Assembly: GCA_003153435.1 (NCBI GenBank)
Contig: PLYR01000129.1
Coordinates: 1 to 45,837 of the forward strand
Direction: 5' to 3'
DNA length: 45,837 bases
Origin: Bacteroidota bacterium
Lineage (GTDB): Bacteria; Bacteroidota; Bacteroidia; Palsa-965
The position numbers and the translations under genes were made by a program. How positions within the stretch are numbered: position 1 is the stretch's first letter; every line of letters begins with the position of its first letter. Below are positions 27,149 to 38,697 of this stretch, in pieces. The notes under the pieces were generated by a model. That model was not told where the DNA came from, did not search any database, and was given only the letters and a program-made list of their open reading frames with translations.

Positions 27149-28351
27149 TTATACGGCACAGACAAACAATTTACTCTCTTTATTCCCCTTCAAGCAGAAC
27201 AATGATTTCAGCGTGACGGTAGCTACAATATAATTAGTTCTGGCAGAGCGGTATTCTTCCTCAATATTTAATATTTCAAGTTGTTTCAGCTCTTCCTTTT
27301 CCCGGAATCGTATGTAGACCTTGAGTGAGAAGTTATTGTCCAGTTGCTCCCCATTCACACGTTTGTCTTTACCATTCAATAGTTTCCGGAGCTTCTTGTA
27401 TGCGTATTTGTAGTTGTAGGTAAGTGCAGAGATATCGGACAGGACGGCACTTCCGGTGGGATGGCTTCCAGCCCCTTTACCTACAAATGTTTGTTTACAG
27501 GAAAAGGCTCCTTCTACTTCAACTCCATTGTATTCATAAATTACATTGTACAGCTCATCTGTTTTTTCAACAAAATGAGGCATGACGTAAACCCGAAACT
27601 CATTGCCTGACTTATAGCCGGTTCCTAATAGTTTAATTCTCAAACCCTTTTCCCTCGCATATACAATATCATCAAAGGTAATATTCTGTATTCCAAGGTT
27701 TAGTACCTGCTCTGGTTTCAGGATGAGTCCGAACGAATGCACTGTGAGCAGAATGGTTTTATAAAGGGTATCAAACCCAGCTACGTCAAGCCAGGGATTG
27801 CTTTCTGCAAATCCGCTTGCCTGTGCATCTTTCAGGATCTCACTATAGTCCTTGCTCTCCAGCTCCATTCTGGAAAGAATATAATTACAGGTTCCGTTCA
27901 GGATACCCCGAAAACTGCTGAGTAATTCATTATCATAATATTCTTCCAGGTTTCGAATGATGGGTATACTTCCTCCGGCCGAACCTTCATAAAGGAGTGC
28001 TACATTATTCTGCTCCTGAAGCTCATAAAGCTTCTGAAAATTCTCCGCCAGCATTTTCTTATTTGCGGTAACTACATTCACCCCATTATTCATCGCTGTG
28101 CTTACAATACGGAATGCTTCCTCCGCATCATCAATCAGCTCTACAATAACATCGAGATCATCCCGTTTCAGAATATCTTCCTTCTTAAACGTGAAAAAAG
28201 AGGCATCTATTTTCCTCGGTTTAGAATGGTCTTTTACACCGATAGTCGTGATGTTCGCCTTGAGGCTCTGGCTGTGATTCAGCACGTCATAAAGTCCCTG
28301 GCCAACGCATCCAAATCCAAATAGTCCAATTGAAATTTCTTTTTCTGACAT
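27149..28351 (-). CDS. hom: Homoserine dehydrogenase
   Basis: A 400-residue NAD(P)-dependent enzyme that reduces aspartate semialdehyde to homoserine, the branch point to methionine and threonine. The Rossmann motif GLFGFGCVGQGL is at about residues 9-20. The catalytic-domain signature runs from EGSAGGSIPIIRNLEEY near 125 through FRGILNGTCNYILSRM (about 145-160) to GFAESNPWLDVAGFD (about 177-191). A C-terminal extension of about 75 residues after the catalytic domain is not a clear ACT domain. It is the last gene of the sulfur-assimilation cluster, 42 bases after the APS/PAPS reductase, which fits supplying the carbon skeleton for homocysteine and methionine. Confidence 0.9.
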   Translation of the reverse strand: MSEKEISIGLFGFGCVGQGLYDVLNHSQSLKANITTIGVKDHSKPRKIDASFFTFKKEDILKRDDLDVIVELIDDAEEAFRIVSTAMNNGVNVVTANKKMLAENFQKLYELQEQNNVALLYEGSAGGSIPIIRNLEEYYDNELLSSFRGILNGTCNYILSRMELESKDYSEILKDAQASGFAESNPWLDVAGFDTLYKTILLTVHSFGLILKPEQVLNLGIQNITFDDIVYAREKGLRIKLLGTGYKSGNEFRVYVMPHFVEKTDELYNVIYEYNGVEVEGAFSCKQTFVGKGAGSHPTGSAVLSDISALTYNYKYAYKKLRKLLNGKDKRVNGEQLDNNFSLKVYIRFREKEELKQLEILNIEEEYRSARTNYIVATVTLKSLFCLKGNKESKLFVCAV

Positions 28352-28393: not shown

Positions 28394-29044
28394 CTATTTC
28401 AAGTGAATACCGCATTCCGACTTGGACTTATTCACCCACCGGCCTTCTCTCGCCCTACCCTGTACTGTGCAATGTATGCAACCAACAGAATTGTATCCTT
28501 TGGATTTCAATGGGTGTTCGGGTAAATTTTGTTCGAGTATGAAGGTATTGATTTGTTCTTCTGTTTGGTCAATGATCGGATAAAATTTCAGGAGTCCATC
28601 CCCCTCCTGAAAGATTTTCAAATCTTTCCGATGCTTCGTTTGAGATCCCATCAATCCGGAAACCCAGACTTCATACCCATTCTTAATTTTTTCCAAGGGC
28701 TCTACCTTGTTCACGCTACAGCATAAATCTGGGTCTTTTTTCCAGGTTTGGTCAGTCCTTGTGAATTGATTTCTCTCCTTGTCTCCTTTCAGCTCAGTCA
28801 CATTCAGTTTGAGTAAACGAGTTAGTTCGGCTTTGTATTCGAGTGTTTCCGGAAAATGATAGGTTGTTTCCAGAAAATAGATTTGTTGATCCGGGTGAAT
28901 CTTTGAAAACTGGTAAAGAAGATAGGCGGCCGTAGTCCCGAAAGAAGAAGTGTAAAGAACTTTGTTAAAGTCATTATACAGCTCCCTGATCCGTTCTTCC
29001 GGACTAAGGGGATAATATTTTTCATTTAATGCGTCGACATTCAT
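28394..29044 (-). CDS. cysH: Adenylyl-sulfate (APS)/PAPS reductase
   Basis: A 216-residue reductase that turns activated sulfate into sulfite with thioredoxin. The nucleotide-binding PP-loop relative is at the start (YTSSFGTTAAYLLYQF, about 31-46). The C-terminus ends in ECGIH, which carries the catalytic Cys. A CC pair (DLCCSVNKVEPL, near 107) plus GCIHCT (near 190) give the four Cys ligands of a [4Fe-4S] cluster, which marks the APS-reducing branch rather than the cluster-free PAPS branch. Substrate choice is therefore probably APS. It lies 20 bases after the precorrin-2 dehydrogenase/TauE fusion gene and feeds the sulfite reductase of the same operon. Confidence 0.9.
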   Translation of the reverse strand: MNVDALNEKYYPLSPEERIRELYNDFNKVLYTSSFGTTAAYLLYQFSKIHPDQQIYFLETTYHFPETLEYKAELTRLLKLNVTELKGDKERNQFTRTDQTWKKDPDLCCSVNKVEPLEKIKNGYEVWVSGLMGSQTKHRKDLKIFQEGDGLLKFYPIIDQTEEQINTFILEQNLPEHPLKSKGYNSVGCIHCTVQGRAREGRWVNKSKSECGIHLK

Positions 29045-29064: not shown

Positions 29065-30615
29065 TTACAGAAATGCCCGAATCAATGTTCTAAGGCTAAC
29101 AATAATCACCAGCGATCCAACGAGGATCAGTCCGGCTCTAATTGGGATTTTATTTGAAAAATAAATTGAAATCGGAGCTGCCACCATGCTGCCGATAATG
29201 AGACCAAATATGATCTGCCAATGTGAAAGTCCGATAATGGTTATAAAAGTAATCGTACTGATGATGGCAACAAAAAATTTGGCGAGGTGAGAGGAACCAA
29301 CTGCATACCGCAGATTCCTTCCGCCTGCAATTAGCGAGGTGGTCACTATCGGGCCCCATCCACCACCACCCACAGAGTCAAGAAAACCTCCTGCTGCTGC
29401 AACGGGCATAATGTGTTTTATTTTCTTCGCTTTGTGGCGACTTACCCTGATCGCACGTACAATAATCAGAATCCCTAAGACCAGAGTATAAACGGCTACA
29501 AGGGGTTTTACCAACTGAATGTATTGCTTACTTATGAATGACACAGCCACAGCTCCCAGCACGGCTCCTATTGCACCCGGGAAAAGCAGCTTACGAAATA
29601 GTCGCATGTTAATGTTTTTATAGCGCATGTAAATGAGTGAGGAGGAACCGGTCGTAAATATTTCAGAAGCATGCATGCTGGCACTTGCGACGGCAGGAGT
29701 AATTGCAGGAATTCCAAGGCTTAGCAGAAAAGTAGTTACACTTACGCCGTAAGCCATTCCAAGCGCCCCATCTACCATCTGTGCAATAAATCCTCCGGAA
29801 ATATAAAGTACAAGTTGAGGATCAATGCTATCTGACAATTTTGAAAACAGGCTCTTTATTGTATGTACCGGAACAAATATGGAAAGCAGGTATCCGGTTA
29901 TCACAATGCATATTACAGCAAGAGAATATAAAGACGCTACTAATATCCGTCTGGATGTTTTCCTGCTCGGCTCCTGCTCTTTGTCAACCATTACGGAAGT
30001 AATGGCATTGAGCTTCTTCACTTTCTTATCCAGATCTCCTTTTAAAGTACCCCTGATCCGGGAAAGGTTCTCCAGCACTTCCTGGGTTTCATCCGGTAAG
30101 GCATTATTCAGAAGCTCCTTTATTCGTTTTGCCATTGTTGGTGATTTACCATTCGTACTAATTGCTATTTTCAGATCCCCCTTTTGCACAATGGAGCCCA
30201 GGTAAAAATCACAGAGCCCCGGAGTATCCGCAACGTTCACCAGTAGATTTCGTTCATTGGCCTTAGCTTTAACAAGAGCACTGAGCTCCGGGTTACCAGT
30301 TGCCATAATAACGAGATCAGCACTGTCCAAATCCGTTTCCTCATATGCTCTGTGTTTGAATTCAACAGCGCCATATGCTTCTCCGTATTCGATGATTTCA
30401 GGACGGATTTTCGGTGCAACTAGCACAACCTGTGTTGCCGGGCTGTTCGCCAGCACTGCCTGAATTTTCTCATACCCGATCTTCCCTCCACCAATGATAA
30501 GAACACGCAGGTGCTCGAGTTTCAGGAAAATCGGAAATAAATTATTTCTATGCAAATCTGCCTGGTTCAAACGCTGTGCTCTCCCCTCTTTCGGTACTAT
30601 GTCCGTATGTATCAT
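29065..30615 (-). CDS. Fusion of precorrin-2 dehydrogenase (Met8/CysG-N) with a TauE/SafE permease
   Basis: A 516-residue two-part protein. Residues about 25-220 form the siroheme-synthase N-terminal domain: LRVLIIGGGKIGYEK is the NAD-binding loop, followed by NVADTPGLCDFYLGSI and ISTNGKSPTMAKRIKELL. It oxidises precorrin-2 to sirohydrochlorin and may also insert iron. From about 235 to 516 the protein is a TauE/SafE (TSUP) membrane transporter with about eight helices, including MVDGALGMAYGVSVTTFLLS and GGFLDSVGGGGWGPIVTT. TSUP proteins move sulfite, sulfonates or related anions. The fusion joins cofactor synthesis to a sulfur-anion transporter inside one sulfur-assimilation operon. No frameshift separates the halves. 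Confidence 0.88.
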   Translation of the reverse strand: MIHTDIVPKEGRAQRLNQADLHRNNLFPIFLKLEHLRVLIIGGGKIGYEKIQAVLANSPATQVVLVAPKIRPEIIEYGEAYGAVEFKHRAYEETDLDSADLVIMATGNPELSALVKAKANERNLLVNVADTPGLCDFYLGSIVQKGDLKIAISTNGKSPTMAKRIKELLNNALPDETQEVLENLSRIRGTLKGDLDKKVKKLNAITSVMVDKEQEPSRKTSRRILVASLYSLAVICIVITGYLLSIFVPVHTIKSLFSKLSDSIDPQLVLYISGGFIAQMVDGALGMAYGVSVTTFLLSLGIPAITPAVASASMHASEIFTTGSSSLIYMRYKNINMRLFRKLLFPGAIGAVLGAVAVSFISKQYIQLVKPLVAVYTLVLGILIIVRAIRVSRHKAKKIKHIMPVAAAGGFLDSVGGGGWGPIVTTSLIAGGRNLRYAVGSSHLAKFFVAIISTITFITIIGLSHWQIIFGLIIGSMVAAPISIYFSNKIPIRAGLILVGSLVIIVSLRTLIRAFL

Positions 30616-30645: not shown

Positions 30646-31416
30646 TTAATTCAGTAAGTATTTCCAATTGGCAAGACTTTGAGGGAAATCTTTATGGTTC
30701 TTCACAGTCTCCCCTATGATTATAACCGCTGGAGAGCCTATCCCTTCTTCCCTTGCTATTTCAAGAATCGTATCGATTGTACCGATCGCCATGTTTTCGG
30801 TTGGCAAGGATCCATTTTGAATAATGGCCACACCGGTGTCTTGTTTTTCCTGAGTCCGGTAAATCTCTACAATTTCAGCAAGCTTACTTAAGCCCATTAG
30901 AATAATCACCGTTGTCGTTGATTGAGCTGCCAGAGCGATGTCTGTTGATAATTTCCCGGAACTGGTGGTGCCTGTGATTACCCAAAAGCTTTCGCTGGTC
31001 CCCCGCAGGGTAACCGGAATTCCCTGAAGACCAGCAAGAGCAATAGATGAAGAAATTCCGGGAATGTATTCCGACTCGATATTGAAATTTTCGGCATACG
31101 AAATTTCTTCAAATCCCCTTCCAAACACAAAAGGGTCTCCGCCTTTAAGTCGTACAACGTTGCCGTAGGTAAAAGCGAAGTCAACGATAAGGGCATTGAT
31201 TTGATCTTGTGAATAAGCATGTTTGCCCTGACGTTTTCCGACAAATATTTTCTTCACGCCAACGGGCACATGTTTCAGAAGTTCTACATTGACCAGTGCG
31301 TCATATAGCACAATGTCAGCCGACAGAAGGGCCTCGAGCCCTTTTACGGTGATTAATCCCGGGTCACCCGGTCCGGCTCCGACAAGTGTAAGCTTAGGTT
31401 GTATCTGTGTGCTCAT
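30646..31416 (-). CDS. cobA: Uroporphyrinogen-III C-methyltransferase
   Basis: A 256-residue SAM-dependent methyltransferase that makes precorrin-2 from uroporphyrinogen III, the first committed step to siroheme. Motifs are LVGAGPGDPGLITVKG (about 11-26), VRLKGGDPFVFGRG (about 88-101) and YIPGISSSIALAG (about 117-129). Its start codon overlaps the stop of the sulfite reductase gene by 4 bases, so the two are translationally coupled, and it makes the cofactor precursor that the reductase needs. Confidence 0.95.
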   Translation of the reverse strand: MSTQIQPKLTLVGAGPGDPGLITVKGLEALLSADIVLYDALVNVELLKHVPVGVKKIFVGKRQGKHAYSQDQINALIVDFAFTYGNVVRLKGGDPFVFGRGFEEISYAENFNIESEYIPGISSSIALAGLQGIPVTLRGTSESFWVITGTTSSGKLSTDIALAAQSTTTVIILMGLSKLAEIVEIYRTQEKQDTGVAIIQNGSLPTENMAIGTIDTILEIAREEGIGSPAVIIIGETVKNHKDFPQSLANWKYLLN

Positions 31417-33533
31417 GTTGTTTGAGTTTTAATTTTGTTAATTGTTTCTTCCCTGTAGAGGCTCACCTTTTTCAGAAATAGGTTCAGTTGATCAAAGTAG
31501 ATTTGTGCAAACTCCGGAGAAGGCTCCCTCTTGTTGATGTGAAGAACCTGCTCCGCAAATGTACTTTCGAACGAAAACTCTCCTGTTTCCACAAAATGTT
31601 TATCGAAGTCATTGATGATTCCTATCTGCGTATTGCAATGCACCTGTTTCCCTAAGAGCAGTGCCTTTGCCGCGTTTACAAAAGCGGCGTAAGTATGGTA
31701 GATCGAATCACCTGCTTGCCCCAATTCAAGCGTTTCTCTCGCTTGAATCTGCTTTTCTTCTGCTTCGAAGATCAGTGTCGCCACCAGATCTATCATGACC
31801 CCAGCGCACTCTCCTACTCCGATTTCAGTTTTGAATTTTACTTCCTGGTCCCAATCAATCAAATCATCAGCAACAATTTTCGCCGGGTCCGCAAGGGGTT
31901 TCAAAAGTTGATAGAAGTAATCCTTTCCTTTTTCATCATAGTAAGAATTAAAGTATTGGCCTTCTTCTGCATTGGTATGATAGTCGTCCAGAATTGCTCT
32001 GAGAACATCCGGTCCTTTCTTGCTCGGGATTTTAATAACCTTATCACCAATTCTGCCTTCCCCATTTCCGAGTGTTCCGCCTCCAAGTAAGAGCTGAAGC
32101 GCAGGGACAACCTGCGCACCTGCTTTAAAAGAGCTACCATGAAAACCTATTTGGGCCAGTCCGTGCTGCGCGCAGGAGTTCATACATCCGCTGATTTTAA
32201 TTTTGATATCATTGTTGTAAATTAAGTCGGGGTATTCAAGTTGGATTACACGTTCAAGCTCTTTTGCAATTCCTGTGCTGCTGGATATTCCGAGGTTACA
32301 GGTGTCAGTACCCGGACACGCCGTAATATCGGCTACACTGTCAAATCCAGGAGCTGCGAGGCCCAGCTCATCCAATTCACGAAAGAGTGTGGGTAAGGCT
32401 TCTTTTTTGAGAAATTTGAGCAAGAAGCCCTGGTTGATTGTAATCCGCACATCATCTGCCGCATACTTATCTACAATCTCAGCCAGCTTCCTGGCTTTGC
32501 CGGAGTGAATATTCCCCAGGAGTACGCGGATATAGACTCCGTAGTACCCTTTTTGTTTTTGTTCAAAAACATTGCTTTTCAGCCAGGCCTGGTAACGTGG
32601 GTTCTCGCTCACCTTAAACGTAGTAAAAACTTTATCGCTGCCGTTAAGTCTGGGGTTGGCTGTATTCCGGTCGATCTTGTATTCGGTCTGATACACCGCT
32701 TTGCTTTCTTCAGCTGCCAAGCGGAGTAACTCTCCCAAACCAATTTTATTCAACAGGTATTTAATCCTGGCTTTATGACGGCTTGTCCGTTCTCCATAGC
32801 GGTCGAATACACGGATCACAGATTCAGTGAAAGGAATAATCTTTTCTTCTTCCAGAAATTCAAAAGCTGTCTGAGCCAGAAACGGTTGAGCTCCTAACCC
32901 ACCTCCAATAAGAACTTTAAAACCACGGACCACTTCTCCGTTACGGATCTGAATTTTTGGAATAAAACCCAGATCATGCATGTAGGTGAAAGCGCTATCG
33001 CGGTCGCTGGATGAAAAAGCCACCTTAAACTTCCGCCCAAGTTCCTGACCAAATGGTTTACGAAGGAAATAGCTGAATACTGCATGTGCATAGGGGCTCA
33101 CATCAAATACTTCTTCAGGATCTATACCTGCAGTCGGGGAAGCCGTGACATTCCTCACGGTGTTTCCGCAAGCCTCCCTAATCGTAATCTGATCTTCTTC
33201 CAGTCTTGACCAAAGTTCAGGAGTACGCTCCAGGCTCACATAATGAATCTGAATATCCTGGCGGGTGGTGAGGTGAAGGTTTCCGTTAGAATATTCATCT
33301 GAAATATCTGCAATACGGACAAGCTGACGGGTGGTGATTTTCCCAAATGGAAGTTTGATCCGCACCATCTGCACCCCTTGCTGACGTTGTCCATACACGC
33401 CACGCGCAAGCCGAAGGGAACGGAATTTCTCTTCATTCAGGGTTCCATCCTGGAAAGATTTTATTTTTTGTTCCAGCTCCAGGATGTCTTTTTCTACCAG
33501 TGGGTTTTCCAGTTCGGTTCGGAAACTTTGCAT
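31413..33533 (-). CDS. Siroheme sulfite/nitrite reductase with C-terminal HEPN-like domain
   Basis: A 706-residue assimilatory reductase. Two ferredoxin-like half-domains and siroheme-binding domains occupy about residues 40-530. The [4Fe-4S]/siroheme ligands are visible as ACPGTDTCNLG (about 405-415) and GCMNSCAQHG (about 448-457). It reduces sulfite to sulfide (or nitrite to ammonia) by six electrons. The gene neighbours (siroheme enzymes and an APS reductase) favour sulfite. After the catalytic part a helical region of about 140 residues (ARETLELGQAGDSIYHTYAA, AKALLLGKQVHCNTQ) resembles a HEPN domain, which ordinary sulfite reductases of about 560 residues lack. It starts 52 bases after the tRNA-Cys 3' end. 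Confidence 0.88.
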   Translation of the reverse strand: MQSFRTELENPLVEKDILELEQKIKSFQDGTLNEEKFRSLRLARGVYGQRQQGVQMVRIKLPFGKITTRQLVRIADISDEYSNGNLHLTTRQDIQIHYVSLERTPELWSRLEEDQITIREACGNTVRNVTASPTAGIDPEEVFDVSPYAHAVFSYFLRKPFGQELGRKFKVAFSSSDRDSAFTYMHDLGFIPKIQIRNGEVVRGFKVLIGGGLGAQPFLAQTAFEFLEEEKIIPFTESVIRVFDRYGERTSRHKARIKYLLNKIGLGELLRLAAEESKAVYQTEYKIDRNTANPRLNGSDKVFTTFKVSENPRYQAWLKSNVFEQKQKGYYGVYIRVLLGNIHSGKARKLAEIVDKYAADDVRITINQGFLLKFLKKEALPTLFRELDELGLAAPGFDSVADITACPGTDTCNLGISSSTGIAKELERVIQLEYPDLIYNNDIKIKISGCMNSCAQHGLAQIGFHGSSFKAGAQVVPALQLLLGGGTLGNGEGRIGDKVIKIPSKKGPDVLRAILDDYHTNAEEGQYFNSYYDEKGKDYFYQLLKPLADPAKIVADDLIDWDQEVKFKTEIGVGECAGVMIDLVATLIFEAEEKQIQARETLELGQAGDSIYHTYAAFVNAAKALLLGKQVHCNTQIGIINDFDKHFVETGEFSFESTFAEQVLHINKREPSPEFAQIYFDQLNLFLKKVSLYREETINKIKTQTT

Positions 33534-33585
33534 GACAAATGTTTTTTATCGGATTTAATGAACTCGTTTTTACTTTTCAATTCAG

Positions 33586-33656
33586 AGGTTCCGGACGGAG
33601 TTGAACCGCCGTGAAAGGTTTTGCAGACCAGTGCCTAACCGCTCGGCCACGGAACC
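33586..33656 (-). tRNA. tRNA-Cys (GCA), with a weak anticodon stem, inside the sulfur operon
   Basis: The minus strand folds into a 71-base cloverleaf. The 7-bp acceptor stem is perfect. There is a 3-bp D stem, an anticodon loop CTGCAAA (anticodon GCA) and a T arm with loop TTCAACT and one G-U in its stem. The anticodon stem has only three good pairs (GGT/ACC); the two outer positions are C-T and T-T mismatches. The discriminator is T and CCA is not encoded (CT follows). It lies 9 bases after the peroxiredoxin stop codon and 52 bases before the sulfite reductase start, on the same strand, so it is probably part of one transcript. Confidence 0.85.
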
Positions 33657-33665
33657 ATATTCGGT

Positions 33666-34301
33666 TTACAAGTCTGGCTGAGGGGTTGTTCTCAGGTAAG
33701 GCTTGATTACAGTGTGTCCTTTCGGGAATTTGGCCGGGATATCTTCCGTTTTGATAGCCGGAGCCACCACTACATCTTCTCCCCGTTTCCAGTTCGCCGG
33801 TGTGGCCACACTGTATTTGGCGGTGAGCTGCAGGGAATCGATTACTCTCAGCAATTCGTCAAAATTCCTTCCGGTAGATGCCGGGTACGTGATTGTGAGT
33901 TTAATTTTCTTATCCGGATCAATGACAAAAACAGACCGTACGGTAAACTTGTCGGATGCATTCGGGTGCACCATGTCATACAGATTGGCCACTTTGAAGA
34001 TGGGATCTGCGATGATGGGAAAATTCACCTGAGTATGCTGGGTCTCGTTGATGTCTTTGATCCAGTCGTTATGCGACTGAAGCGGATCAACACTTAGGGC
34101 AATGACTTTAACATTGCGTTTGTCGAATTCAGCTTTCAGCTTAGCCACTGCACCCAGCTCTGTGGTGCATACGGGAGTAAAGTCGGCCGGGTGGGAGAAA
34201 AGCACACCCCAGCTCTTTCCGAGCCATTGATGAAACGAAATATCTCCTTGAGTAGATTCAGCTTTGAAGTCAGGTGCGGTATCGCCTAGTTTAAGTGACA
34301 T
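33666..34301 (-). CDS. Peroxiredoxin (1-Cys, Prx6-type)
   Basis: A 211-residue thiol peroxidase. The peroxidatic Cys is in HPADFTPVCTTELG (about 37-50). The long C-terminal arm after residue 150 (YPASTGRNFDELLRVIDSLQ, PKGHTVIKPYLRTTPQPD) is typical of the Prx6 group, which reduces hydrogen and lipid peroxides with one active-site Cys. The reading frame stays open 52 codons upstream, but the ATG at 34301 gives the family N-terminus (MSLKLGDTAPDF), and the upstream part overlaps a terminator and a leader ORF in another frame. It is the first protein gene behind the tandem attenuator, and the tRNA-Cys gene follows 9 bases after it. Confidence 0.93.
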   Translation of the reverse strand: MSLKLGDTAPDFKAESTQGDISFHQWLGKSWGVLFSHPADFTPVCTTELGAVAKLKAEFDKRNVKVIALSVDPLQSHNDWIKDINETQHTQVNFPIIADPIFKVANLYDMVHPNASDKFTVRSVFVIDPDKKIKLTITYPASTGRNFDELLRVIDSLQLTAKYSVATPANWKRGEDVVVAPAIKTEDIPAKFPKGHTVIKPYLRTTPQPDL

Positions 34302-34350
34302 GGTTGTTGGTTTTAGGTTTGTATTATGGTTTGTTTGAGTTGGATTGTAT

Positions 34351-34390
34351 AAAAAAAGCCCTTCTCGCATTTGAGCGGAAGGGCTTTTTT
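34351..34390 (-). terminator. Attenuator 2: intrinsic terminator between leader peptide 2 and the peroxiredoxin gene
   Basis: On the minus strand the GCCCTTC and GAAGGGC arms, flanked by A and T runs, form a strong stem with an inner CGC/GCG pair and one bulged base. It ends in at least seven T. The A and T runs make it usable on both strands. It stands about 50 bases ahead of the peroxiredoxin start, after a Cys-rich short ORF. Confidence 0.88.
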
Positions 34391-34430
34391 GTTTTGCTGA
34401 GAATCTCAGGAACAGGAAAAGATCTTCCGC
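34375..34430 (-). promoter_or_regulatory. Attenuator 2: candidate antiterminator pairing
   Basis: GCGGAAG (34430-34424, within codons 26-28 of leader peptide 2) is perfectly complementary over 7 bp to CTTCCGC (34381-34375), which is the upstream arm of terminator 2. The two pairings exclude each other. A ribosome held at the Cys codons 34456-34448 would leave the first arm free; one that reaches the leader stop codon would cover it. Seen by eye only, without energy calculation. Confidence 0.65.
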
Positions 34431-34507
34431 ATCTGCGGCATCGTCATACAGCAACACATCCAGCAGTGTCCGGTAGCATTCAAATGATGTTTGATTATTG
34501 CGTTCAT
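34406..34507 (-). CDS. Cys/Met-rich leader peptide 2 (33 residues)
   Basis: A short ORF from ATG 34507 to TGA 34406. Its middle carries a Cys/Met cluster, HCWMCCCMTMPQM, with three consecutive Cys codons, and it ends FSCS. It has no transport or enzyme features. It lies between terminator 1 and terminator 2, in the layout expected of a transcription-attenuation leader: a translated run of regulatory codons, then a switchable hairpin. A stable function for the peptide itself is not suggested. Confidence 0.75.
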   Translation of the reverse strand: MNAIIKHHLNATGHCWMCCCMTMPQMRKIFSCS

Positions 34508-34524
34508 GTTCCTGGTTTGTACTT

Positions 34525-34557
34525 AAAAAAAAGGGGCTTCTCCTTGCGGAAAAGCCC
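34525..34557 (-). terminator. Attenuator 1: intrinsic terminator after leader peptide 1
   Basis: On the minus strand a 10-bp stem (GGGCTTTTCC with GGAGAAGCCC, one G-U) is capped by a GCAA tetraloop and followed by C and eight T. It lies 40 bases after the leader 1 stop codon. Confidence 0.9.
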
Positions 34558-34591
34558 TGATGTATATGGTGTGTTGAACAGCGCTCTTCCG
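34547..34591 (-). promoter_or_regulatory. Attenuator 1: candidate antiterminator pairing
   Basis: CGGAAGAGC (34591-34583), starting 5 bases after the leader 1 stop codon, pairs with GCTTTTCCG (34555-34547), the upstream arm of terminator 1, over 9 bp with one G-U. Formation of this pair would open the terminator. A ribosome at the stop codon would cover the first arm, whereas one stalled at the TGC-TGT pair would not. This is the classic logic of amino-acid attenuators. Confidence 0.7.
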
Positions 34592-34596
34592 GTAAA

Positions 34597-34671
34597 TCAA
34601 ATGCACATCATACAGCAGGTATTGCTGTTGATGTTGTTTGAAATTTGGAAGAACTTGTTGTTCATTTTCAT
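34597..34671 (-). CDS. Cys/Met-rich leader peptide 1 (24 residues)
   Basis: A short ORF from ATG 34671 (or the in-frame ATG at 34665) to TGA 34597. The N-terminal part is Asn-rich, and the last residues are TCCMMCI, so Cys and Met codons are concentrated right before the stop. A strong Bacteroidota promoter lies 13 bases upstream and a terminator/antiterminator pair lies downstream. This is the layout of an attenuation leader peptide. The same Cys/Met enrichment in leader 2 argues against chance. Confidence 0.8.
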   Translation of the reverse strand: MKMNNKFFQISNNINSNTCCMMCI

Positions 34672-34684
34672 TTGTATCGTGAGA

Positions 34685-34717
34685 CAAAGATATTATTATT
34701 TTTTATTAAAACGCAAA
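34685..34717 (-). promoter_or_regulatory. Bacteroidota promoter of the leader-prx-sulfur operon
   Basis: On the minus strand TTTG (34717-34714), 21 bases, then TATCTTTG (34692-34685) is a near-ideal -33/-7 pair. The leader 1 ATG follows 13 bases later, so transcription should begin only a few bases ahead of it. Confidence 0.85.
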
Positions 34718-36378: not shown

Positions 36379-38697
36379 TTAGTAAACAATTACTTTTCCA
36401 GTCTTCACATTTTTGGAACCGGTATTCGAGATCTTGTAGAAATAAACTCCTTTGTCTTTTCCACTCAGATCGACAACGCTGGCATTGTTAGCGGTAAGTG
36501 ACTGGAAAACCAATTTACCAACCATATCATAAATCTCTACCATATTTTCACCTTCAAGACCACCCACTGTAAATACTCCTGTGTTCGGGTTTGGGTAAAT
36601 TTTGATAGTTGCGTTAGGCTCGGTGACGTTTTGTATTCCAGTAGCCGTATTGATAGTTCCGGTCACAGCAACTCTTGGGCTCATGCAACCCGGAGCAGCC
36701 ACTACCCAGTCGTAGAAGTAGTAGTAGTAATTCTGAGGAGTGGAGGAAGCATCAGAACCGGTAATCGAAACCAGGTTATTGACGGTATAAGGATAACTAA
36801 CACCGGCGCTATTCCGGTAAAGATCATTCGTTGCGCTTGCGGTAGAAAGTTTGATTGCATAATTATTCTTGGCTGGCAGAGTGATATTCAGAGGCACCAC
36901 GTTTGTTCCTACTGTTGCATTAAAGGCCGCAGAAAGGGCTACTGAATTACCTGCACTATCCAAAATTTCGATCTGGCGACTTCCGGCAGTACCTGCATAA
37001 ATAGTAACAGACTGAAGGATCATTGGACTCAGCACATTAAAGTATAACCTTCTGTCATTGTTTGCTGTGTAATATCCGCCTGCTGCACCTGTTCCTGCAT
37101 TGGTAGGCAGACCTGTATGCTGAGCCGCAGGTGCTGTTGCGTTATCAACATAGTATGTAGTGGTTACATTGAGGTTTGGAGCGTAGGAGGTGCCGGTATT
37201 GACGAGGTTACCTCCGCTTGCAGCATCATACCAGTTTAAGGTATTGGTGCCGGAAGCTGAAAGATTAACCACACCAGGTCCTACCCGTGTTGCACCAGTA
37301 GTGCTTGGACTTGAAAGCAAAGTAACGTTGATCATATTATTATTGGTCACCCCGTTGTTTCCAAAAGCATTAGTAGCCGTAAGTGTTACAGAGAATGCTC
37401 CGGATGTTGTATAAGTATGGGTTGGATTCTGAAGTGCGGAAGTTGTTCCATCTCCAAAATTCCAGAGCCAGGAGGTAGGTTGATTACCCGACTGATCTGT
37501 AAATTGTACCGGTGCACCACAAGTATTATTTAAATCAGAAATAAAACTGGCGGTAGGAGGAAGATTATGATTAATGATTCCTTTATATACAAGGTATTCT
37601 GCACTTGCACCCACTCCGGAGGTTCCGTATGCAATGCGCATGTATCCGTTTTCACCCCAGCTTGAACCCCAGGAGTTCCGGAGGAACCAGCATCCTTGTG
37701 CATCATCCCAGCCACAAAGTACAATGGCATGGTCAATAGAGGTCCCGTCAGAAGAAGAGAATACTCCGCTGGAGTAGTTTTGGAAATTATTGCCTGCATC
37801 GATACCAGCCCATACAGGTCCATAATTGTAAATGGCCTGTTTGATTTGTGCATCGGTTGGATTCGATCCATTCACCTGAGCATGGCTGGTGATTTTTTCA
37901 TGATAAGTATAAGAAGAACCACAAGTTCCGTTAGCGGCAGTATAACCCAGGTCTGCTGCGTAAACACAACCATAAGTCTGAAACATATCATCAGGGCACC
38001 ATCCTCCGCTACATCCGCTGCAAGCTGCATCACAGTTAATGAGCCATTGCTCCGAAAGATTCCGGACATTGCTATCCCAGTAGTTAATCATAGATTCGAA
38101 AGAGCCATTGGCTGCAAATGACCAGCAACTGCCACACTGCCCCTGATCTTTTACAGGAGTCATAATTCCATTAATTCCAGCCACTGTTGGTGCGGTCTGC
38201 CAGTTGAAGCTTGTAGGAAGGGTTGTTAAAGTAGAAGGAGTAGTATTGTTTGTTCTTGCAGAAGAAACGGAGTTGCCCGCAACCGGTACACCGGTATAAG
38301 GACCTGCAGTAATCACTGTTATCGTATAGCTGTCGGTAGCGGAGGCATCTCCCATCCATGGACGCTTATATAGGAATTCCATGACGGAGGTACCTGATGC
38401 AGTTGGGGTATAGTGAAAAGTTTGGGTGCCGGTTCCTCCAGGAGCAGCAGTTACATTATCCGGCGTAAATTCCCAGGATCCGGCTTGAGCCAGTTTGCTG
38501 GTTGATTTGGCGGTACTCTTAAGGTACCATCCGTATCCAGTAGAAGGATGAGCCGGTAATTGGAGTTCCAGGGCCTGGTCTTGAGCAACCTGAACCGTTT
38601 GATGTGCATTATTAGGTGTCAGACGAACATCTTTCTGACTGTACATGCCCATGTATGTGAAGAGGCAAAGTACGCTGAGGGTAAGTTTTCTTTTCAT
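36379..38697 (-). CDS. Secreted papain-family (C1A) protease with N-terminal chagasin-like inhibitor domain, PKD and T9SS type A domain
   Basis: A 772-residue secreted protease. After a signal peptide (to about residue 20) comes a chagasin-type (I42) domain at about 22-130, with HPSTGYGW near 51, GGTGTQTF near 87 and RPW near 112, the three loops known to block papain-like sites. The C1A domain spans about 175-375: oxyanion Gln and catalytic Cys in QGQCGSCWSF, His in DHAIVLCGW, Asn in RNSWGSSWGENGY. No ordinary I29 propeptide is seen. Next are a PKD domain (WLWNFGDGT, about 385-460), an Ig-like region and a type A sorting domain (IYPNPNTGVFTV, KGVYFYKIS). It would be exported by T9SS and digest proteins outside the cell. 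Confidence 0.92.
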   Translation of the reverse strand: MKRKLTLSVLCLFTYMGMYSQKDVRLTPNNAHQTVQVAQDQALELQLPAHPSTGYGWYLKSTAKSTSKLAQAGSWEFTPDNVTAAPGGTGTQTFHYTPTASGTSVMEFLYKRPWMGDASATDSYTITVITAGPYTGVPVAGNSVSSARTNNTTPSTLTTLPTSFNWQTAPTVAGINGIMTPVKDQGQCGSCWSFAANGSFESMINYWDSNVRNLSEQWLINCDAACSGCSGGWCPDDMFQTYGCVYAADLGYTAANGTCGSSYTYHEKITSHAQVNGSNPTDAQIKQAIYNYGPVWAGIDAGNNFQNYSSGVFSSSDGTSIDHAIVLCGWDDAQGCWFLRNSWGSSWGENGYMRIAYGTSGVGASAEYLVYKGIINHNLPPTASFISDLNNTCGAPVQFTDQSGNQPTSWLWNFGDGTTSALQNPTHTYTTSGAFSVTLTATNAFGNNGVTNNNMINVTLLSSPSTTGATRVGPGVVNLSASGTNTLNWYDAASGGNLVNTGTSYAPNLNVTTTYYVDNATAPAAQHTGLPTNAGTGAAGGYYTANNDRRLYFNVLSPMILQSVTIYAGTAGSRQIEILDSAGNSVALSAAFNATVGTNVVPLNITLPAKNNYAIKLSTASATNDLYRNSAGVSYPYTVNNLVSITGSDASSTPQNYYYYFYDWVVAAPGCMSPRVAVTGTINTATGIQNVTEPNATIKIYPNPNTGVFTVGGLEGENMVEIYDMVGKLVFQSLTANNASVVDLSGKDKGVYFYKISNTGSKNVKTGKVIVY

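Follow-up and report, generated by a model that had tools for sequence, protein, structure and literature searches.

The 45,837-nucleotide stretch of DNA analyzed here (the window) is contig PLYR01000129.1 of assembly GCA_003153435.1, which comes from a soil bacterium of the Palsa-965 lineage of Bacteroidota. On its minus strand, to which all window coordinates below refer, it carries an operon that begins with a Prx6-like peroxiredoxin with a 1-Cys Prx C-terminal domain (33666 to 34301), followed by tRNA-Cys with the GCA anticodon (33585 to 33656), an assimilatory sulfite reductase-like nitrite/sulfite reductase hemoprotein (31413 to 33533), uroporphyrinogen-III C-methyltransferase (30646 to 31416), a fusion of the N-terminal domain of siroheme synthase (precorrin-2 dehydrogenase) with a TauE/SafE sulfite exporter (29065 to 30615), phosphoadenylyl-sulfate reductase CysH (28394 to 29044), and, as the last gene, homoserine dehydrogenase (27149 to 28351). 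Relatives have ORFs of similar length at the position of the siroheme synthase/TauE fusion. These genes represent sulfate/sulfite reduction and the methionine branch. The first-pass annotation, made from the sequence alone, had placed a sulfur operon behind two transcriptional gates; its sulfite reductase-like, siroheme, and CysH genes could all be identified, and the operon additionally includes the tRNA-Cys gene.

The gap between this operon and the upstream gene for a B12-binding domain (35195-34788) holds two short leader ORFs. From 34717 to approximately 34350, the leader region consists of a promoter, ORF1, terminator 1, ORF2, and terminator 2, so that the tandem leaders and terminators of the first-pass annotation are real and lie on the minus strand where it had put them. 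The single promoter is of the Bacteroidota type (34685 to 34717), with TTTG at 34717-34714 and, after a 21-nt spacer, TATCTTTG at 34692-34685, which agrees with the earlier reading of TTTG-N21-TATCTTTG.

ORF1 (34597 to 34671; MNNKFFQISNNINSNTCCMMCI) encodes a peptide that ends in NTCCMMCI, with Cys codons at 34617, 34614, and 34605. The 24-residue ORF ending in TCCMMCI that had been described earlier was confirmed, except that alignment with two congeneric genomes makes the second ATG, at 34665, the probable conserved start, which gives 22 residues in all three species; their C-terminal ends share the pattern CCMMC(I/V/C). Directly 3' of the ORF1 stop codon lies the predicted antiterminator arm of gate 1 (CCGGAAGAGC; 34583 to 34592), of which 34591-34583 is complementary to 34555-34547 in the upstream arm of terminator 1. 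This pair had been correctly located, but the arm belongs just outside ORF1 and not to its coding part. Terminator 1 with its T run spans 34525 to 34557; its hairpin (34557-34534, -17.3 kcal/mol) has a GCAA loop, as noted at first, although this cap is not conserved, other loops being found in the related loci L046 and L047. A further element, segment 1 (GUUCUUCC; 34647 to 34654), includes Phe codons of ORF1 and can pair with the gate 1 arm. Its complementarity to the arm has a z score of -5.8 in the window and is below -3 in 6 of 15 upstream-type (type-1) leaders, being absent in others; for gate 1, the corresponding early 1:2 hairpin is clearly seen in the window and several relatives and is lacking in other relatives. 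By analogy with trp, such pairing would favor termination when the leader is not translated.

ORF2 (34406 to 34507; MNAIIKHHLNATGHCWMCCCMTMPQMRKIFSCS) was confirmed as the predicted 33-residue Cys- and Met-rich ORF. It has Cys codons at 34465, 34456, 34453, and 34450 and another at 34414, and its peptide ends in GHCWMCCCMTMPQMRKIFSCS before the stop codon. ORF2 is matched by the covariance model R1 with an E value of 4.5e-11, and most genomes of the family contain one strong match each. The predicted gate 2 arm, GCGGAAG (34424 to 34430), is located within ORF2 and pairs with 34381-34375, exactly as the coordinates of the initial proposal had it. Terminator 2, including its T run, occupies 34350 to 34389, and its hairpin (approximately 34389-34353) has an energy of -22.6 kcal/mol; the expected second terminator ahead of the peroxiredoxin is thus in place, ending ~48 nt from the peroxiredoxin start. 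Its stem is paired in 98% of cases across 21 leaders. The picture of two similar switches was accordingly retained in a refined form, with the arm after the stop codon in gate 1 and inside the ORF in gate 2. In six relatives (L055, L056, L058, L070, L071, and L149), an extra conserved Cys codon is found 3' of the arm, 2 to 3 codons before the leader 2 stop.

This arrangement of leaders and terminators is far beyond chance. The folding energy of the leader region has a z score of -7.0 relative to shuffled sequences, and both leaders and both terminators were recovered in the two congeners, 5' of the same peroxiredoxin. In a set of 165 loci, comprising the regions upstream of sulfite reductase relatives from the class and from named genomes, a strict detector found a Cys-rich small ORF followed by an intrinsic terminator in 53 sense regions, as compared with 2 of 165 antisense and 0 of 330 shuffled regions. 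These three lines of evidence exclude a chance origin. The class-wide set alone yielded 40 of 85 loci in the sense orientation versus 1 of 85 in the antisense orientation, from 16 of 26 families, and the named carriers include Pedobacter, Mucilaginibacter, Chitinophaga, and Parapedobacter. When the excess of sense over antisense hits was calculated for each of the 20 amino acids, it was strongest for Cys (29 versus 1), followed by Leu (25 versus 1) and Met (22 versus 0); the Leu excess can be attributed to shifted frames of the same TGY repeats. Runs of Leu, Ala, and Val in the other reading frames of these repeats were considered and rejected, as only 3 of 38 and 2 of 38 tandem leaders had closed ORFs with an ATG start in those frames, versus 38 of 38 in the Cys frame, where an ATG start and closure before the terminator were required by the detector and the tight spacing between stop codon and terminator was not selected for.

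In 73 leaders, the stretch 3' of the Cys codons was compared with the upstream arm of the terminator and proved complementary to it, with a mean z of -1.9 and a Stouffer score of -16 relative to dinucleotide shuffles. Since the raw energy gap between the Cys-stalled and the stop-bound state is partly an effect of length, the folding of the RNA left free by a Cys-stalled ribosome was likewise compared with shuffles, giving a Stouffer z of -20.8 over 70 leaders; both sums count related leaders separately and therefore overstate the independent evidence. The antiterminator was weak (p > 0.1 in the duplex test) in 34 of the 73 leaders, some of which are probably false positives of a relaxed detector. 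The covariation search that had been proposed along with the switches was carried out and showed conservation of the Cys/Met codons and of both terminators, as well as covariation of the antiterminator arms with the terminator arms. In an alignment of 21 downstream-type leaders, 82.5% of the cells of the antiterminator helix are paired; sliding the helix by 1 to 3 columns lowers this to 34 to 54%. Compensatory changes altered 7 cells on both sides, versus 0 of 500 shuffles. One antiterminator pair shows a recurrent change from A-U to G-C with a matching change in the terminator stem. In the upstream-type leaders, which were misaligned by MAFFT and had to be read one by one with hand-picked segments, the helix formed in 16 of the 16 tested.

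These data also bear on whether the Cys-rich peptides could have a function of their own as small proteins (metal- or redox-binding ones, for instance), with the hairpins merely ending their own short transcripts. Cys-rich peptides can bind metals, and the first gene of the operon encodes a peroxiredoxin, but residues outside the Cys/Met cluster vary widely, the arms covary with the terminators, and the position of the arm is constrained relative to both the Cys codons and the stop codon. In addition, leader 2 of one congener (G009) changes its reading frame after CCCM and yet retains GATGCGGAA, the RNA stretch pairing with the terminator, which points to selection on the RNA pairing. A peptide function of this kind is therefore very unlikely.

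Ribosome-mediated transcription attenuation, in contrast, fits the spacing of the elements. The front edge of a bacterial ribosome lies ~15 nt beyond the first base of the P site. With this footprint assumed, placing any Cys codon of ORF1 in the A site leaves 34592-34583 free, whereas a ribosome at the stop codon covers 6 bases of this segment. The gate 1 antiterminator hairpin correspondingly has -17.9 kcal/mol with the ribosome at Cys and the arm free, as opposed to -7.2 kcal/mol with the ribosome at the stop codon; in gate 2, the values are -22.3 kcal/mol with the ribosome at Cys, -7.4 kcal/mol with the arm masked, and -1.4 kcal/mol with the ribosome at the stop codon, by which point it would already have passed over the arm. 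Across the leaders, a median of 9.5 to 10 nt separates the final Cys codon of the cluster from the start of the arm, close to where the front edge of a stalled ribosome would be. Stalling in gate 1 does not cover segment 1, which could thus remain a competitor for the arm. Some relatives have a gate 2 arm that starts 37 to 43 nt before the end of the stop codon and is no longer covered by a stop-bound ribosome; closing of this gate would therefore have to occur during the passage of the ribosome. Minimum-energy folds of the complete leader always favor the terminators, which suggests that the switch depends on cotranscriptional timing, as in trp.

The locus very probably represents two ribosome-mediated transcription attenuators of the trp/his type, arranged in series on one transcript. 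It combines clustered codons for the product of the pathway, intrinsic terminators, and antiterminators that exclude them, and the geometry and energies agree that the position of the ribosome, at a Cys codon or at the stop, would decide whether the arm is free. The original trp/his-type reading is thus supported by the codon clusters, the terminators, the covarying antiterminators, and the fitting ribosome geometry. When charged tRNA-Cys, and probably also tRNA-Met, is scarce, a ribosome would wait at the Cys/Met cluster of leader 1 with its front edge just short of the arm; the arm could then pair with the upstream arm of terminator 1 and let RNA polymerase pass. When Cys is plentiful, the ribosome would reach the ORF1 stop codon and cover the arm, allowing terminator 1 to form. 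Leader 2 would repeat the decision, its arm inside ORF2 becoming hidden while the ribosome translates across it. All genes from the peroxiredoxin and tRNA-Cys to homoserine dehydrogenase would thus be transcribed only by polymerases that had passed the two terminators in turn. From the features described above, we infer the stalling and read-through, which amino acids are sensed, how steep a response two gates confer, and how exactly the arm is masked in gate 2.

Two other modes of control were weighed against attenuation at intrinsic terminators. Control through translation or Rho has been proposed for actinobacterial cys operons, whose poly-Cys leaders lack terminators (PMC1262725). In the window and its relatives, however, both leaders are followed by strong intrinsic terminators with T runs, and terminator 2 ends ~48 nt before the peroxiredoxin start, so that this mode is highly improbable here. 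The probability of a metabolite riboswitch or a T-box is smaller still: both kinds of element regulate sulfur genes of other phyla, but little sequence is conserved outside the Cys codons and the terminator stems, and a search of Rfam at gathering thresholds found only tRNA in the window and no match in eight related loci. SAM riboswitches and T-boxes were rejected for want of a match to an Rfam family.

Two leaders in series were found in 19 loci, which represent at least seven families. By eye, L048 also shows a leader 1 in the upstream position, which would make it the 20th tandem locus; L084 and L086 look like false tandem calls in the class-wide scan. The promoter motif TAnnTTTG is present 108 to 143 nt 5' of terminator 1 in 19 of 19 tandem loci, the same arrangement as in the window, and in 0 of 19 between terminator 1 and leader 2. 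With a promoter motif ahead of gate 1 and none between the gates, the two gates most likely share a transcript. The upstream member of most pairs is the one with the longer distance from stop codon to terminator and has its arm beside the stop; in the downstream member, this distance is short and the arm lies inside the ORF. The switch thus recurs across Bacteroidota, often paired behind one promoter.

As for the signal, the leader codons together with the operon content clearly point to Cys. Around the Cys clusters, Met makes up 38.7% of the residues other than Cys, versus 4.9% in the N-terminal portions of these ORFs (p = 7e-47). This enrichment suggests that the two sulfur amino acids share one sensor, and joint sensing of Cys and Met is likely. 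Alternatively, each gate could have its own signal, with Cys dominating at one and Met, or a general slowing of translation, at the other. This reading would draw on the same Met enrichment, on the presence of homoserine dehydrogenase in the operon, on the related leaders before metY-like genes (see below), and on the precedent of Salmonella mgtCBR, where two leaders respond to ATP and proline (PMC3641672). It appears unlikely, as both leaders of the window carry Cys as well as Met codons and neither is Met-only or Cys-only.

As in the trp and his attenuators of enteric bacteria, pathway-product codons in the leader ORF are combined with a mutually exclusive antiterminator and intrinsic terminator, the stop codon of gate 1 is placed so that a finishing ribosome would mask the arm, and a 1:2, 2:3, and 3:4 logic of segments may apply in the family of the window. 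The differences are the Cys and Met codons, the lack of homology, the two serial gates, the Bacteroidota promoter, and a gate 2 whose arm lies inside the ORF. The polycysteine leaders found ahead of cys operons in Actinobacteria are reportedly the subject of Canestrari et al. (2020). Those leaders resemble the present ones in having runs of Cys codons near the stop, 5' of cys genes, but they belong to another phylum, are single, and have no conserved terminators, so that they may act through Rho or translation (PMC1262725), whereas here there are two strong intrinsic terminators. In Rhodobacterales, uORFC-8-2 before cysS has two adjacent Cys codons followed by a terminator stem and U run, with predicted ribosome-mediated attenuation (PMC8632094). 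This is the same order of elements, but in an alphaproteobacterial single gate with no Met codons reported and ahead of a tRNA synthetase gene; judging by the operon content, the leaders of the window are not upstream of cysS. The mgtCBR mRNA also has two serial leader ORFs, with two signals in place of the same Cys/Met code; according to its authors, a single attenuator is normally used (PMC3641672).

Within Bacteroidota, leader-peptide attenuation has been inferred 5' of amino acid operons of Flavobacterium psychrophilum (PMC9723704), and Bacteroid-trp RNA (PMC2864571) provides a comparison case; the portions of these two papers that were consulted contained no Cys/Met or tandem case. The earlier remark that no published description was known for this phylum can thus stand for Cys/Met leaders of sulfur operons and not for leader-peptide attenuation in general. 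The open-access literature searched contained no Bacteroidota Cys/Met leaders on sulfur operons and no two serial leaders with the same code. Cys attenuators are thus known elsewhere, and their tandem, intrinsic-terminator Cys/Met form in Bacteroidota appears to be undescribed.

The tRNA-Cys gene is part of the gated operon in four genomes of the family, those of the window, G009, G011, and G002. The genome of the window has a second tRNA-Cys elsewhere (G000:C10:15609-15679), identical to the operon copy in 54 of 72 positions. In G002, where no sulfite reductase was detected at the search threshold used, the leader, tRNA-Cys, peroxiredoxin, and homoserine dehydrogenase are kept, and the leader stands before tRNA-Cys; in G004, it is directly 5' of homoserine dehydrogenase. 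We give roughly even chances to the broader view that sulfur amino acid attenuation is phylum-wide, with two nonidentical gates of the same code forming a multiplicative AND switch that in some genomes also controls the tRNA-Cys gene. If so, in those genomes the switch would control the very molecule whose charging it senses. The predicted switch provides a clear, testable candidate for the control of sulfur assimilation in Bacteroidota from permafrost-peat MAGs to Pedobacter, Mucilaginibacter, and Chitinophaga, and its paired form is a natural example of same-code attenuators in series, conserved in at least seven families, in which the gain from the second gate (a steeper response or lower leak) could be tested by gate removal.

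In other families of the phylum, covariance-model matches place similar leaders before metY-like or sulfurtransferase genes. A Cys/Met leader and terminator precede O-acetylhomoserine sulfhydrylase-like (metY-like) genes, identified by eye, in L245, L248, and L250, and a thiosulfate sulfurtransferase-like gene in L246 and L247 of family f88 of the same phylum; in L246, this gene forms a pair with a sulfite reductase-like gene behind the leader. The leaders before metY-like genes suggest a wider Cys/Met attenuation regulon in Bacteroidota. In some loci without a Cys leader (L095, L187, and L205), AT-rich palindromes of the TATAG type are seen by eye just 5' of sulfite reductase, possibly a repressor site that stands in for attenuation. 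Elsewhere in the window, the product of positions 36379-38697 is a large secreted protein that carries a papain-like protease motif and has a sorting tail for type IX secretion.
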